From positions 1 through 45,569 of the IMG/VR virus record IMGVR_UViG_3300033182_000507: 45,569 bases of DNA, one strand, 5' to 3'. A program made the position numbers and the translations under genes. Below the pieces are notes generated by a model. That model saw only the letters and a list, made by a program, of their open reading frames with translations. It was not told the origin of the DNA and did no database searches. Of this stretch, positions 1,193 to 14,000 are shown piece after piece (positions within the stretch are counted from its first letter, which is position 1; each line of letters opens with the position of its first letter). This stretch comes from a virus.

Positions 1193-1250
1193 CAGTTGAG
1201 CAAAGTGTCCACCAGCGCCCCCTGAGGGCGCTTTTTCGTGCCATACTATA
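1193..1250 (+). promoter_or_regulatory. Intergenic repeat element, copy 1
   Basis: The element begins CAGTTGAGCAAAGTGTCCAC, is followed by a C-rich stretch, and reaches GTGCCATACTATATG about 30 nt after the GTCCACC core. The same order occurs at 2325 and 3540. Here the C-rich part is a full hairpin terminator. TACTAT (1244-1249) could be a -10 box, but no TTGACA-like box sits 17 nt before it. A ribosome site (AAAGGG) and the start of the next gene follow. Confidence 0.55.
1214..1236 (+). terminator. Rho-independent terminator
   Basis: AGCGCCC (1214-1220) pairs perfectly with GGGCGCT (1226-1232) around a five-base loop, CCTGA. The stem is followed by a run of T (1232-1236). It lies 22 nt after the stop of the 901-1191 gene and inside the first copy of the repeated intergenic element. 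Confidence 0.85.
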
Positions 1251-1275
1251 TGCATCAACCAAAGGGAACCGACCC

Positions 1276-1458
1276 ATGGCAACCAAAGCAGCAGCACTTC
1301 AACAGTTCCGCTACAACTGGAAAGTGTCAACCAAGGGCACACAATGGGCAAATGATGTTATCGCCAAGCGTGAAGCATGGAATAACTTCACCGATGAACT
1401 TTGCAAAGAGGGTTACATCACCGACCGTCAATACAACACCTGGACTAACCCTTTCTGA
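1276..1458 (+). CDS. Small hypothetical protein, 60 aa
   Basis: ATG 1276 follows AAAGGG, a plausible ribosome site about nine bases upstream. The 60-residue product begins MATKAAALQQFRYNWKVSTK and ends QYNTWTNPF. It is basic at the N-terminus and probably helical (QWANDVIAKREAWNNFTDELCKEG). An overlapping 83-codon ORF starting at 1238 in another frame is low-complexity and unlikely to be real. The gene is the first after the terminator, so it probably starts a new transcript. No family assigned beyond a small cyanophage-type protein. Confidence 0.7.
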   Translation: MATKAAALQQFRYNWKVSTKGTQWANDVIAKREAWNNFTDELCKEGYITDRQYNTWTNPF

Positions 1459-1485
1459 TTCACATTCACCCACATTCTTCACATC

Positions 1486-1653
1486 ATGACTATCACTGAA
1501 CGCAATCAAAAACTCTACGATCTGCGCGTTAAACTTGATAAGAAACGGGCAGAACTTGCATGGATTGAGCAAGAGATCTGGATGGTAAAAGATGAGTACG
1601 ACAAGCAAAGATTTGTCGAAACTCCTCTCTTTGATGAAATCTTCGGAGGTTGA
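1486..1653 (+). CDS. Small coiled-coil-like hypothetical protein, 55 aa
   Basis: This ORF runs from ATG 1486 to TGA 1651-1653. The product begins MTITERNQKLYDLRVKLDKK and continues RAELAWIEQEIWMVKDEYDKQR, a heptad-like helical stretch covering residues 8-43. It ends FDEIFGG. The last codons (ATCTTCGGAGGT) contain the GGAGG ribosome site of the next gene, so the two are translationally linked. The frame has no stop and typical phage codon choice. Function unknown. Confidence 0.65.
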   Translation: MTITERNQKLYDLRVKLDKKRAELAWIEQEIWMVKDEYDKQRFVETPLFDEIFGG

Positions 1654-1658
1654 TTAAC

Positions 1659-1898
1659 ATGAAAGACTTCATTTGTGCATACTTCGGTAAAGATTGGACC
1701 ATCACTGCTCGTGGGTTTGGTTCTCTTAAGGAAGCAGAATCGCATGGCAAGTTTATGATGCCAATGGCAGGATGCTTCGGTTTTGCTGTTATCTCAGAAG
1801 ACCAAGATGCTTGGATTGTGTTTGATCAGTTCAGCATGTTGTCTGGCAAAGAGACAGTAACTCGTGACGATTTCAAGAACTTCGCTATTTCTTTCTGA
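1659..1898 (+). CDS. Hypothetical protein, 79 aa
   Basis: ATG 1659 is preferred over the in-frame TTG at 1650 because GGAGG at 1645-1649 sits nine bases before it. The protein begins MKDFICAYFGKDWTITARGF and contains GSLKEAESHGKFMMPMAGCFGFAVISEDQDAW, which looks like a small compact alpha/beta domain. It ends NFAISF, and its TGA overlaps the next ATG by one base (TGATG at 1896-1900). No family recognised. Confidence 0.7.
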   Translation: MKDFICAYFGKDWTITARGFGSLKEAESHGKFMMPMAGCFGFAVISEDQDAWIVFDQFSMLSGKETVTRDDFKNFAISF

Positions 1899-2107
1899 TG
1901 ATTACTACTGACAATCACAACCGCAAGAATGTGTGGGATATAAAAGAATCCACCGATAGTTGGTTCTATTCACCCGTAAATTATCCAAGAATTAAGAGCA
2001 CACTAACCGAGAAAATGCACAAAGAATGGTTAGATCTTATCAAGAAAGATCCCGTCATGGTTATTGACTTAAATACTCTTAAACTTCGTCCCCCAAAGTA
2101 CAAATGA
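1898..2107 (+). CDS. Hypothetical protein, 69 aa
   Basis: It starts in a TGATG overlap and ends in an ATGA overlap (2104-2107) with the next gene. The product begins MITTDNHNRKNVWDIKESTD and ends RPPKYK. It is basic towards the C-terminus, with a Trp-rich N-terminal third (VWDIKESTDSWFYSP). No membrane segment and no motif that names a function. Its place within a chain of overlapping genes supports translation. Confidence 0.65.
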   Translation: MITTDNHNRKNVWDIKESTDSWFYSPVNYPRIKSTLTEKMHKEWLDLIKKDPVMVIDLNTLKLRPPKYK

Positions 2108-2307
2108 CTGTCTCCAAAGAACAACTCATCGAAGCACTTTACAATGAGTATGTTTTTCTTTGTCATGATGATTTCGATCCAGATGAAGATGTTACTCCTG
2201 AAGAATACCTGGAAGGGTTAAAAGAATTGACCTATGATGAGTTGGTGGATGAGACATCCACCGATGATACTTTCACTCTTGAAGAATATCTTAGGATGTG
2301 GGGGTAA
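2104..2307 (+). CDS. Acidic small hypothetical protein, 67 aa
   Basis: It begins in an ATGA overlap. The product is strongly acidic (MTVSKEQLIEALYNEYVFLC, then DDFDPDEDVTPEEYLEGLKELTYDELVDETSTDD). A hydrophobic helix at the start is followed by Asp/Glu-rich segments. Such small acidic proteins are frequent in early regions of T4-like phages, where some modify or mimic host components, but nothing here points to a specific target. The second repeat element follows 17 nt after the stop. Confidence 0.7.
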   Translation: MTVSKEQLIEALYNEYVFLCHDDFDPDEDVTPEEYLEGLKELTYDELVDETSTDDTFTLEEYLRMWG

Positions 2308-2324
2308 GCAAAGAGAAATTGTGC

Positions 2325-2387
2325 CAGTTGAGGCACTGTCCACCATTCCCCCCAAACGCCCCGATTCTGTGCCATCATACTGGTATG
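2325..2387 (+). promoter_or_regulatory. Intergenic repeat element, copy 2
   Basis: CAGTTGAGGCACTGTCCACC (2325-2344) is followed by a C-rich stretch and by GTGCCATCATACTGGTATG. The distance from the GTCCACC core to CATACT is 32 nt, close to that in copy 1. Unlike copy 1 there is no perfect hairpin with a U tract. AAAGGAAACGCA before the next ATG also resembles AAAGGGAACCGACCC before the gene after copy 1. Confidence 0.5.
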
Positions 2388-2402
2388 AACAAAGGAAACG
2401 CA

Positions 2403-2639
2403 ATGCCCATCACCGTCCGAAACGCAGACAACAAAGTGTATATCTCTCTGGTCCAAGATCCCGCCTTCATTAGTGCAATCGAAGGTCTGCAATCTTTTGT
2501 TCTTGATAACAACGCAGATTGCGACATGGCATACGATTGGGTATGCGATCAGGCAGAATGTCACTCCTTTGTTTGTGACGGTCCCGCATGGGATTTGTTC
2601 TACGACATGTGGGATTCCACCCAAGGTCTTGACGATTGA
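2403..2639 (+). CDS. Hypothetical protein, 78 aa
   Basis: ATG 2403 follows AAAGGA (2391-2396), which fits better than the in-frame ATG at 2385. The product begins MPITVRNADNKVYISLVQDP and contains DNNADCDMAYDWVCDQAECHSFVCDGPAWDLFYDMW. This is unusually rich in Cys, Asp and Trp. Four Cys and a His between residues 46 and 65 could bind a metal, although the spacing matches no standard zinc finger I know. It is the first gene after repeat copy 2. Confidence 0.7.
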   Translation: MPITVRNADNKVYISLVQDPAFISAIEGLQSFVLDNNADCDMAYDWVCDQAECHSFVCDGPAWDLFYDMWDSTQGLDD

Positions 2640-2839
2640 TGCCCAAATACGACGCAAATTACTACTCAAAAATGCAAAACAATCACCTGACTGATTACAT
2701 CAAATCCAAAGGTTATACTGTCGCAGAATGTGACAAACCTGCCAAACTTCCTGAGTTTCCTAAAACTATTCACGGTCGTACTTTTGCCACTCGTGAAGAG
2801 TATCAGGCAGCAATTCATGACTTTCTGAACGGTAACTGA
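2639..2839 (+). CDS. Hypothetical protein, 66 aa
   Basis: The start ATG 2639 overlaps the previous stop by one base (TGATG). A TTG one codon upstream is less likely. The product begins MPKYDANYYSKMQNNHLTDY and contains IKSKGYTVAECDKPAKLPEFPKTIHGRTFATREEYQAAIHDFLNGN. It is mildly basic and probably alpha/beta. No family recognised. Confidence 0.65.
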   Translation: MPKYDANYYSKMQNNHLTDYIKSKGYTVAECDKPAKLPEFPKTIHGRTFATREEYQAAIHDFLNGN

Positions 2840-2865
2840 TTCTGCAAAAACTTTCCCGCAAACTA

Positions 2866-3084
2866 ATGCAATTCCAAATCACTGACATTCAATTTGATTG
2901 CACTCTCGATGAGGACACTGATTATTCGTCTTTGAGTGATCAAATCTGCACGGAGGAGAAACTTCGTGAAGAATACATTGGTACATTCTGGGAGGCAGAT
3001 GATGGTGATGATTTAGTCGAAGAGATCTCCTGTGCATCTGGTTGGTGTATTCGTTCCATTGACTATCGCACAATTCTGTCATGA
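2866..3084 (+). CDS. Acidic hypothetical protein, 72 aa
   Basis: ATG 2866 lies 26 nt after the previous stop. The protein begins MQFQITDIQFDCTLDEDTDY, is strongly acidic throughout and ends CIRSIDYRTILS. The beta-like N-terminal strand and evenly spread acids suggest a small folded domain. Its stop overlaps the next start by ATGA (3081-3084). Function unknown. Confidence 0.65.
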   Translation: MQFQITDIQFDCTLDEDTDYSSLSDQICTEEKLREEYIGTFWEADDGDDLVEEISCASGWCIRSIDYRTILS

Positions 3085-3158
3085 TTAGTTTCATTGTCTG
3101 GATCTGTATTGTGATCCTTCTGTACATCTTCATCAAAAACTTCGTCAACCACGCATGA
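3081..3158 (+). CDS. 25-aa single-pass membrane peptide
   Basis: This ORF starts in an ATGA overlap and ends in an ATGATG overlap with the next gene. The product (MISFIVWICIVILLYIFIKN, then FVNHA) is almost entirely a transmembrane segment followed by a short polar end. It is exactly as long as the membrane peptide at 827-904 and has the same overlap arrangement, but the residues are not obviously homologous. It could act on the host membrane, but there is no direct evidence of function. Confidence 0.6.
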   Translation: MISFIVWICIVILLYIFIKNFVNHA

Positions 3159-3361
3159 TGACTAAAGAGCAACTTGATCAGTTCAAATCCAACTATTGCG
3201 AGATGATCATTGATCAAATGGATATGAATGATCTCATTCAAATGTGCCATGATTTGTTAATGGATGCATACAAAGATTGCACAGAAGAAGAATTGAAAGA
3301 GGAAATCTTGGACCTCTACGATGATAGTGTGCTGAATGGTATTATCGGAGGCAACATCTGA
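3155..3361 (+). CDS. Acidic helical hypothetical protein, 68 aa
   Basis: Two adjacent start codons, ATG 3155 and ATG 3158, are possible. The first gives an ATGA overlap, the second a TGATG overlap. The product (MMTKEQLDQFKSNYCEMIID onward) reads as repeated amphipathic acidic helices (QMDMNDLIQMCHDLLMDAYKDCTEEELKEEILDLYDD). It ends NGIIGGNI. Its last codons include CGGAGG, a ribosome site for the next gene. Function unknown. Confidence 0.65.
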   Translation: MMTKEQLDQFKSNYCEMIIDQMDMNDLIQMCHDLLMDAYKDCTEEELKEEILDLYDDSVLNGIIGGNI

Positions 3362-3534
3362 TGACACAAAAAGAAAAGATCGAAGCACTGCGTAAGGGTA
3401 AGACAGGCGCTCAAATCCTGAGAATCTTGGATAACCTCTACGGTGTAAAGATCACCACGATCTCTACAACAACAGAGGCAATTCCTGACCCTGGTTATAT
3501 CATCACTTGGGATGGGCGGCAGGTCGCCTTTTAG
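3361..3534 (+). CDS. Hypothetical protein, 57 aa
   Basis: ATG 3361 overlaps the previous TGA (3359-3361) and is preceded by GGAGG at 3347-3351. The frame is open for 57 codons to TAG 3532-3534. The product begins MTQKEKIEALRKGKTGAQIL and ends ITWDGRQVAF: a basic helix followed by a beta-rich half. It is the last gene before the third repeat element. No family recognised. Confidence 0.6.
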   Translation: MTQKEKIEALRKGKTGAQILRILDNLYGVKITTISTTTEAIPDPGYIITWDGRQVAF

Positions 3535-3539
3535 TATGC

Positions 3540-3600
3540 CAGTTGGGCAAAGTGTCCACCAAACCCCCACAGGGCAGGGAAATGCTCTATATTAGTTTCA
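3540..3600 (+). promoter_or_regulatory. Intergenic repeat element, copy 3
   Basis: CAGTTGGGCAAAGTGTCCAC (3540-3559) is followed by CAAACCCCCACAGGGCAGGG and CTCTATATTAG. TATATT (3588-3593) lies 28 nt after the GTCCACC core, close to the -10-like boxes of copies 1 and 2. The next gene starts at 3646, so the leader is longer here (about 45-50 nt) and includes a GGGG/CCCC pairing around 3602-3619. Confidence 0.5.
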
Positions 3601-3645: not shown

Positions 3646-3993
3646 ATGCGTAAGATCGAACAGCAAATGTGCGCCGCCGTTAAGTCTAACGCTAACTGGC
3701 AATCTGCTAACACTGCTGTTACCTTTGACGAGGAAACTGGCATCTCTAAAGTGTATCTGCACGGCAACAAAATTGCAGAGATTGATGACACCAGCATGAC
3801 TATCTTTGACGGTGGTTGGCAGTCCAACACCACAAAGTCTCGCCTTAATGCACTTTGCGATGAGTTTTGCTTCGCTGGCGAAGGTGTTTTTCAGAAAGAC
3901 TTTAAGTGGTTTGTTCGTAAGTTTGTAGGACAAATGGGAATCGAAAAGATCTTCGTTACTGAAGATTTCGAGTCTGGTTATGTCTTTGCCTGA
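3646..3993 (+). CDS. Conserved-looking hypothetical protein, 115 aa
   Basis: The 115-residue product begins MRKIEQQMCAAVKSNANWQS and continues with alternating strands (NTAVTFDEETGISKVYLHGNKIAEI). The rest (STMTIFDGG-like strand, a helix with SRLNALCDEFC, then FKWFVRKFVGQMG) looks like a complete folded domain. It resembles a protein often seen in T4-like cyanophages, by recollection only. It lies alone behind repeat copy 3, which probably carries its promoter. No catalytic motif recognised. Confidence 0.75.
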   Translation: MRKIEQQMCAAVKSNANWQSANTAVTFDEETGISKVYLHGNKIAEIDDTSMTIFDGGWQSNTTKSRLNALCDEFCFAGEGVFQKDFKWFVRKFVGQMGIEKIFVTEDFESGYVFA

Positions 3994-11063: not shown

Positions 11064-14000
11064 ATGATCGAGACAAATTCGCCTTTAAGTCCCAGAATCA
11101 AGACTTATCAAGTAGTAAGTGAAACTGTACCCGAATTTGCAGTTTCAGAGAATCCTGCGTTTGTAGAGTTTTTAAAACAATATTATATCTCTCAAGATTA
11201 TCAAGGTGGACCATCTGATATCGCTGAGAATATTGATGCGTACATCAAATTAGATAATTTAACAACTGATGTAATCAGAGGCACCACAAATTTGACTGCG
11301 GATATCTCAAATTCCGCAGATGTCATTAATGTTACCAATACTGATGGATATCCTCAGCAAAATGGTCTCCTGAAAATAGATAACGAGATTATTACATATT
11401 CTGAGAAAACTAATACATCTTTTATTGGTTGTATTAGAGGATTTAGTGGAATTTCTGGTTACTCGGAAAATGCAGTAACCTGGAGTCAAACTATAGCATC
11501 TCCACACTCTTCTGGCACATCTGTTGTCAATGTGAGTGTTCTTTTTCTTCAGGAATTCTATAAAAAACTGAAGGCAATGTATACTCCTGGTTTGGAAGGA
11601 GTAACACTATCTCCAGACCTCGATGTAAACAATTTTATCAAAGAAGCAAGAAGTTTATATGAAGCAAAGGGAACCGAAGATTCCTTCAAGATTCTTTTCA
11701 AAGCTTTATTTGGAATTGAACCTAAAATCAATGATCTTGAGAAATATCTGATCAAACCATCATACGCAAACTATATCCGCAGAAAAACTATTTCTGTGGA
11801 GTTGATTTCTGGTGATCCTAGTGGTTTGATCGGTGAAACCCTATTTCAAGATGATGATCCAAATAATCCAAATTATAATGCTGCATCTGGACCTATTTCT
11901 GAAGTCACTAACATCAGAGATAACTATTACAAAATTTCTCTGTTTACTGGTTTTGATGAGAGATCTCTGACTGATGGAACATTTAGAGTTGCTGGAAGAA
12001 CAAGAAATATTGGTGAAATTGGTATTGGAGCATCTGTAATTACAGTTGATTCCACTGTTGGATTCTCCAGTGTTGGTTCTCTTAAAATTGGAGATCCTAC
12101 AAACTCATATTATCAGACTCTTACTTACACTACAAAGAGTATTAATCAATTTTTTGGAATCAATCCTTTAGTTTCTACCACTATTCCAGACAACAGCAAA
12201 ATATCTGCTCCCAATGTTGTCTATGGATACGAGCAAGGAGATACTTCGAAGGAAGTAGTCATGAGGGTAACTGGTGCCCTTAGTAAATTTAATAGCAACC
12301 AATCTCTTCAAAACTTAGATGCGAACTCTTCAATTAGAGTAAAGAACTTAGGTAGATATATTGACAATCCTGAGAATGACAAGAGTTACGAGGAAATTTT
12401 CTTCAATTCTTGGATTTATAACACATCTGCTCGCTATTACATTGATTCTTTCTCTGGATCGAATTTTGTTCTTGAAGGAACTATTGATAAATCCAGTCTT
12501 AGAAAAAATGATAGTGTTCAAATTCTAAAAAGAGGAACTACTGAACTGGTTGCTGACAATTTAGTTGTAACTGGAGTAAATGCAGTTACAAGCACCATCT
12601 CTTTGTCTGGAACAATTCCAACATTAGACCCACTAACTTTATACGATGTAAGAAGAAAGCAAAAGAAAGCAGTTTCAACTGTTGTTCCTTTGATCGGTGG
12701 TCAAGAGCAACTTCTTACTGATGTTAATAATACATACATCGTTTCGGAGAATGAATCTGAAAGCGGTAAGAGAGAAGGATTTGTTGCTTCTAGTTCTCTT
12801 CCTAGTTACCCAATCACAACTGATAAGATTCTCGCAAAACTTGTTAATCCTTCTCTTGCATTAGGAAACTGGCAGGGTTATTCTAGCGTAGAAAACGCTT
12901 ATAGTATTATCTCTTTCTCCAATCCTGTTCCCTTTAAGACTGGAGAGCAAGTATATTATGCTGCAGGACCAGGAACAATTGCTATCGGTGGTCTTGAGCA
13001 AAAAGACTATTTTGTAAAGGTTCTGAGTTCACCCAACCAAATTCAACTTTTTGCATCTAGAGCATTTATTAAAGCAAATCTTCCTGTATATTTTACTCCC
13101 CCAACTCAAACAACTGGAACTCACGATTTTATCCTTAGTTCTCAAGGCAATAGATCTCTTTTCCCTGCTAGACCGATTCGTAGGTTCATTCTTGAGCAAG
13201 ATCTTAAGAGTGGAAAGGAAGAGCAAACAACATCAGAATTTACATCTGATGGCAACACTGGAATGCTTATTAATGGTGTTGAGATCTTAAATTATAAGAC
13301 TTCGGATGTAATTTACTATGGTGAAGTAGAATCTGTTGATATTTTGTCTGGTGGATCTGGGTATGATGTACTTCATCCACCTAGCATCACAATTAATGAT
13401 TCAAATGTAAGTGCCGCAAATACTGCAGCTGCTTTAGCAGTTGTATCTGGCAAAATCGAAAACATCGTTGTTGACCCAGTAAATTTTGATATTGATAGCG
13501 TAGTTAGTGTAGAAATTTGGGGTGGTAATGGTAAAGGTGCTAGAGGTAGAGCAGTAACAGAAGAAAGATATAGAGAAATTTCTTTCTCTGGTATTACCAC
13601 CTTATCTGGAGGAGATGTCAATGCTACAAATGATGTATTTACTTTTGATGATGATCACAACCTTCTGACTGGTGCAAGAATTGTCTATGACAATAATGGA
13701 AATTCTAATCTTGGAATTGCTACCACTGGATCTTCAAAGGAAGAACTAACTTTGATGAGTGGTCAGGATTATTATGTCCATGCAAATTCCAACAATTCAA
13801 TTTCTCTCTACTACACCAAGAATGATGCTATTCTCGGGATTAGTAGTATTCAAATTAGCGAAGATGCCGCTGCAGCAAATACTGGTCTTCATATTTTTAG
13901 AACATATGAGCAGAAGACATCTATTGGTAGAGTAAGCATTGAGGACCCAGGCGAAGGATACACTAACAGACATCTTATTGTCAAATCGGTTGGTGTCAGC

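Follow-up and report, generated by a model that had tools for sequence, protein, structure and literature searches.

A putative promoter class with an upstream inverted repeat in front of small-gene blocks of T4-like cyanophages

Results

The DNA analysed here, called the window throughout, is the 45,569-base IMG/VR record IMGVR_UViG_3300033182_000507, whose closest records are Synechococcus phages and whose genes code for T4-type baseplate and sheath proteins plus one Kyanoviridae-specific protein; as judged from its sequence, it is T4-like cyanophage DNA. Its first 9 kb carry mostly small, often overlapping open reading frames (ORFs) on the + strand, and it is among these that the element studied here, a candidate promoter, recurs. 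The original prediction had placed three copies at 1193, 2325 and 3540, and a pattern search for CAGTTG-N5/6-(G/C)TGTCCACCA returned these positions, all on the + strand, as the only 3 matches in the whole record (chance expectation: mean 0.01 over 100 shuffles, with three never reached). When the core was combined with a -10 box, 3 matches in the window stood against 0 in 200 first-order resamples. The copies read CAGTTGAGCAAAGTGTCCACC at 1193, CAGTTGAGGCACTGTCCACC at 2325 and CAGTTGGGCAAAGTGTCCACC at 3540 and are indeed intergenic, each located after the stop codon of a small ORF (1191, 2307, 3534) and before the next ORF start (1276, 2403, 3646).

All three copies consist of an operator, in which the right half is the core, and a -10 box placed by alignment of the family described below. 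In copy 1 the operator (1188-1214; score 48 in our position-weight model, see below) is made up of the left half GTAGACA (1188-1194), which overlaps the stop codon of the ORF before it, and the right half GTGTCCACCA (1205-1214). Between this operator and the extended -10 TGC-CATACT (1242-1247; predicted +1 at A1254) lies a terminator-like hairpin, AGCGCCCCCTGAGGGCGCT (1214-1232; -13.3 kcal/mol, z -3.0), followed by TTTTTC, in line with the proposal that copy 1 doubles as a terminator; the first ORF behind it (1276-1458, 60 amino acids, phrog_336, unknown function) starts 22 nt past the predicted +1. The operator of copy 2 (2320-2345; model score 40) has the left half TGTGCCA (2320-2326) and the right half CTGTCCACCA (2336-2345), and its -10 box is CATCAT (2373-2378) with TGC before it, at about the position where the S-RIM2 promoter has CATACT. 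Here the predicted +1 is A2385, and the first ORF (2403-2639, 78 amino acids, phrog_714, unknown function) begins 18 nt further on. Copy 3 combines the left half TATGCCA (3535-3541) with the right half GTGTCCACCA (3552-3561; whole operator 3535-3561, model score 49) and a TATATT box (3588-3593), which predicts a +1 at A3600, 46 nt ahead of an ORF (3646-3993, 115 amino acids) of the Kyanoviridae Gp96 family PF23790. Directly upstream of copy 3, in the 3' end of ORF 3361-3534, a simple scan found a terminator-like hairpin (3514-3529), which is weak evidence; copy 2 is without a hairpin of this kind, and the folding of copies 2 and 3 themselves is no better than that of shuffles. All these features are on the + strand. 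With the boxes so aligned, the distance from core to box is 26-27 nt rather than the 28-32 nt originally proposed, and it is this correction that makes CATCAT the box of copy 2. A weak copy, CAACTG-GAAA-GTGTCAACCA, is also seen at window 1314-1333, within the ORF that comes first downstream of copy 1, and in Syn9 at 47328; this is probably coding conservation.

The evidence for a promoter class is computational throughout and covers sequence, spacing, orientation, the -10 box, the start signal, gene position, nested hairpins and spread. A permissive initial scan of IMG/VR (gap 3-12) gave mostly chance matches; the convincing ones had a spacer of 5-7 and were followed by a -10 box. Early-region DNA of cultured cyanophages showed the same bipartite core before small genes, followed by a spacer that is C-rich or contains TTG and then by a -10 box. 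What we call class 1 comprises 298 distinct cores in IMG/VR, 217 of which have a -10 box at 25-29 nt. Counted by distance from the core end and without forcing, -10-like hexamers numbered 71 at 26 nt, 149 at 27 and 28 at 28, against at most 12 at each other distance from 15 to 40 nt, and among the 217 distinct sites the box 26-28 nt past the core has the consensus yATAmT, with TGn directly before it in 90/217 and TG at either offset in 114/217. Aligned on this box, the 217 sites show a purine at the expected +1 and a T at +2 (86%), neither of which had been used in site selection; this is what a sigma-70 -10 box near TATAAT with a start about 7 nt downstream should look like. In 196/217 sites (opposite strand: 53/217) an ATG-initiated ORF of 40 codons or more begins within the next 150 nt, the median distance from predicted start to ATG is 19 nt (quartiles 17 and 22), and only 16/217 sites fall inside an ORF of at least 60 codons compared with 66% of random places. 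Both the purine-T conserved at the presumed +1 and the tight ATG distance of 17-22 nt fit a promoter. The idea that the core is bound by a regulator or defines a phage-specific promoter class gains support from the fixed distance between core and -10, the conserved start and the tight ATG distance. The further claim that there is no -35 box at 17 nt is true of the three window copies, which lack the TTGACA-like hexamer that classical sigma-70 early promoters have 16-18 nt before the -10, but it does not extend to the class, 54/217 sites of which carry TTG at that spacing.

Alignment of promoters in front of the Gp96 gene (PF23790) revealed different right halves, namely GTGTCCACy in the window, Bellamy and S-SCSM1, GTGGCAC in S-RIM2, S-H25, MbCM6, IOM18 and S-M1, and GTGTCACA in Syn9. 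Through these orthologous promoters we found a sister class (class 2) with the right half GTGGCACA and 59 distinct sites, whose register to the -10 and purine-T start are those of class 1 and about 30/59 of which have TTG at -35 spacing. Taken together, both classes describe an inverted repeat, TGTGmCA-N10-TGkCACA, centred near -53. Its length is 24-25 bp and its symmetry imperfect, the sister form being TGTGmCA-N10-TGGCACA and the class 1 form TGTGmCA-N10/11-TGTCCACyA, which differs from the joint repeat by an additional base in its right half and a conserved yA behind it.

As for spread, the pattern with a -10 at 26-28 nt has matches in 15/15 marine Kyanoviridae cyanophages and the reversed pattern in none. 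A position-weight model, trained on IMG/VR sites only and then run on independent sequences, gave between 10 and 33 sites per genome in eight cultured Kyanoviridae cyanophages (Syn9 10, S-RIM2 12, MbCM6 12, P-SSM4 18, the freshwater phage S-CRM01 19, P-SSM2 21, S-PM2 21, S-CAM7 33), 5 in S-TIM5 and 3 in the window, exact counts being soft because a few palindromic class 2 sites were reported on both strands. No site was found in HTVC008M (a SAR11 T4-like phage), Syn5, Ma-LMM01, T4 or 220 kb of host DNA, nor in any of the reversed and complemented controls. So the expectation that the motif is kept before genes of related phages was borne out in every Kyanoviridae cyanophage tested, with none in the non-cyanophage controls. 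The sites gather in the small-gene cluster, most genomes having some elsewhere too. Syn9 (NC_008296), for instance, has cores at 46306, 47220, 48574 and 49094, and the start predicted for each site is 12 nt past the first base of its -10. S-TIM5 (NC_019516), a myovirus of another lineage, has variant sites, 4/5 of them with the right half TGGCCC at the same spacing (163790, 165060, 165346, 170904); first-pass counts had listed S-CRM01 and S-TIM5 as devoid of the element, a result overturned by the wider model.

Many sites share the nested layout of copy 1: in 64/217 class 1 sites, copy 1 among them, a GC hairpin whose stem has 6 bp or more is fully contained in the stretch from operator to -10, while shuffles gave 4.9, and 23 of the 64 also have a T run in the spacer. 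A hairpin nested within a promoter is an unusual arrangement. A published example may be the S-PM2 (NC_006820) stem-loop at 11369-11391, which Puxty et al. (PMC4503421) discussed as a possible promoter-stem-loop (PeSL) and which we find between the operator and the -10 of a class element at 11363-11392. In copy 2, 39 non-coding bases of the promoter (window 2337-2375) are identical to S-RIM2 46379-46417, the DNA after them being only ~73-75% identical, which hints at recent exchange at the promoter.

Discussion

Our analysis makes it likely that the copies are promoters of a single class in T4-like cyanophages, from which host sigma-70 polymerase, together with an upstream dimeric activator, would transcribe blocks of genes. 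Such a promoter would be laid out as an inverted repeat near -53, a 26-28 nt spacer usually without a good -35, a -10, a purine-T start and an ATG some 18-19 nt on. A dimeric DNA-binding protein, of phage or host, would occupy the inverted repeat, and we infer this binding from dyad symmetry and position only. The bound dimer may then hold host sigma-70 polymerase at a promoter whose -35 is too weak alone, thereby turning on together whole groups of small, overlapping and probably early genes. Where a nested hairpin is present, it could end the transcript of the upstream block past the operator and ahead of the next -10.

Instead of an activator, an early phage protein might use the inverted repeat to shut the genes off later, as a repressor at a promoter that needs no activation. 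Dyad symmetry and several copies per genome suit a repressor equally well, and TTG triplets at -35 spacing (54/217 class 1 and about 30/59 class 2 sites) are in its favour too. However, the operator ends 26-28 nt before the -10 and overlaps neither it nor +1, and a -35 is missing in most class 1 sites, so activation fits better and we consider repression unlikely. Still less probable, to our minds, is a role of the core in RNA, where it would serve the upstream transcript as a terminator part or RNA-protection signal and the -10 would be a separate matter. While the hairpin beside the core in 64/217 sites (with a T run in 23) and the terminator-like fold of copy 1 would suit such a role, the hairpin is missing from 70% of class 1 sites, copies 2 and 3 fold no better than shuffles, and the fixed -10 distance together with the conserved +1 calls for a link at the level of DNA.

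Just as improbable, we think, is a PeSL-like recombination cassette, conserved chiefly because gene blocks are shuffled through the homology that it provides. The identity between copy 2 and S-RIM2 next to more divergent DNA speaks for it, and so does the position of the possible PeSL of S-PM2 (PMC4503421) within the element at 11363. Spacers, however, vary widely between copies, whereas operator, spacing, -10 and +1 are kept; this argues for selection on transcription, with recombination perhaps a side effect. That these are plain sigma-70 promoters, alike upstream by descent and with no protein bound there, is an option we hardly credit: their -10 and start are ordinary, yet the operator is kept across marine and freshwater phages with differing flanks, occurs as a variant in the unrelated S-TIM5, has dyad form and is matched nowhere in the controls.

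Activation from the inverted repeat, which we prefer, has difficulties of its own. In a rigid dimer site one would not usually expect the N5/N6 variation that the operator shows, and both classes are present in one genome, which implies that one protein accepts both or that there are two proteins. No recognised DNA-binding fold is seen in the proteins that element-bearing phages have in common and the negatives lack. The early timing proposed for the small-gene blocks, finally, rests on general knowledge of this gene cluster. All of these count against our interpretation.

Among known systems, the PeSL cassette is the nearest published idea. T4 early promoters and PeSL promoter-terminator cassettes were reportedly treated by Arbiol (2010) and Comeau (2014), both cited in PMC4503421, and like these cassettes the element is a small intergenic promoter with a stem-loop between small variable gene blocks of T4-like phages. 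With a PeSL defined as promoter plus stem-loop terminator in a short intergenic gap, copy 1 and the 64/217 class 1 sites have the general form and copy 2 does not. Unlike T4 early promoters and PeSLs, the class has a dyad operator near -53, a -35 that is usually weak or missing and a hairpin that, when present, is found between operator and -10. For promoter-stem-loop motifs of other T4-like phages, a role in the shuffling of gene blocks has been proposed.

The element also resembles T4 middle promoters (MotA/AsiA), in that a phage-specific upstream site may replace the -35 by an activator-dependent logic. In T4 the MotA box is near -30, whereas the site here is an inverted repeat that spans about -65 to -40; no MotA-type block near -30 is conserved in the 217 class 1 sites, and a MotA profile search was negative in all 15 genomes (0/15), the positive control being silent too. 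According to PMC5780444, which cites Doron 2016, T4-like middle promoters and motA/asiA are lacking in cyanophages, which raises the question of how transcription of their many small unknown genes is organised. T4 late (gp55) promoters have TATAAATA in place of the -10 and no upstream site, and class 1 departs from this form with yATAmT and an upstream operator. An upstream regulator site is shared with cyanophage promoters that bind host factors, namely PhoB at the Pho box (PMC10976474) and NtcA (PMC3037559). Neither CTTA-N7-CTTA (Pho box) nor GTA-N8-TAC (NtcA) appears in the consensus of the 217 class 1 sites, and the operator is not enriched in host genomes. Our literature search found no paper naming the motif, part of which may already be described in Doron 2016. 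The work of Doron et al. is said to be a study of Syn9 transcripts, and if the motif is reported there, the class is already known.

Which protein might bind? The spread, cyanophages of two lineages but not the SAR11 T4-like phage, suits a factor of the host group or one carried by the phage, and right-half variation between phages leans towards a phage factor. Phyletic profiling (element-bearing phages including S-TIM5, minus the negatives) returned photosystem and high-light genes, a very basic protein of 47 amino acids and two small unknown proteins; the latter three have no domain match and are leads only. The idea that the class 1 core stems from the host was rejected, as 75 matches in 300 host-family genomes against about 90 for the reversed pattern (hand count) is chance level. 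The dyad form has matches in 5/101 host genomes, about three independent sites where, by our estimate, roughly three are expected, with three genomes that share one site upstream of ribosomal RNA (rRNA) genes counted as one event. In these three related host-family genomes a perfect TGTGACA-N10-TGGCACA lies ~430-440 nt upstream of 16S rRNA (L391:1756-1779, L392:4955-4978, L393:4999-5022). Mimicry of an rRNA promoter was not adopted since 30 other rRNA upstream regions we examined are without the repeat. A bolder scenario, tentative and to be read with some doubt, is that an undescribed regulator, be it a protein that the virion delivers or a transcription factor of picocyanobacteria, binds TGTGmCA-N10-TGkCACA and switches on small-gene blocks of T4-like cyanophages worldwide, that many of these promoters nest a terminator and that the phages may borrow a host control site.

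With its fixed spacing, the family-wide operator offers a DNA bait for finding the regulator. From it, the transcription starts of many phages and uncultured contigs can be predicted, and unknown genes can be sorted into blocks that are probably expressed together. In this context, a search of genome contigs for the full element gave five real-looking matches (L188, L196, L202, L203, L201). In four of them (L188, L196, L202, L203) the element adjoins phage-like helicase, methylase or clamp-loader genes, and these contigs belong to assemblies catalogued as Rhodopirellula, Prochlorococcus, Synechococcus and Euryarchaeota. As judged from the phage-like genes beside the element, they are probably cyanophage contigs within those assemblies.

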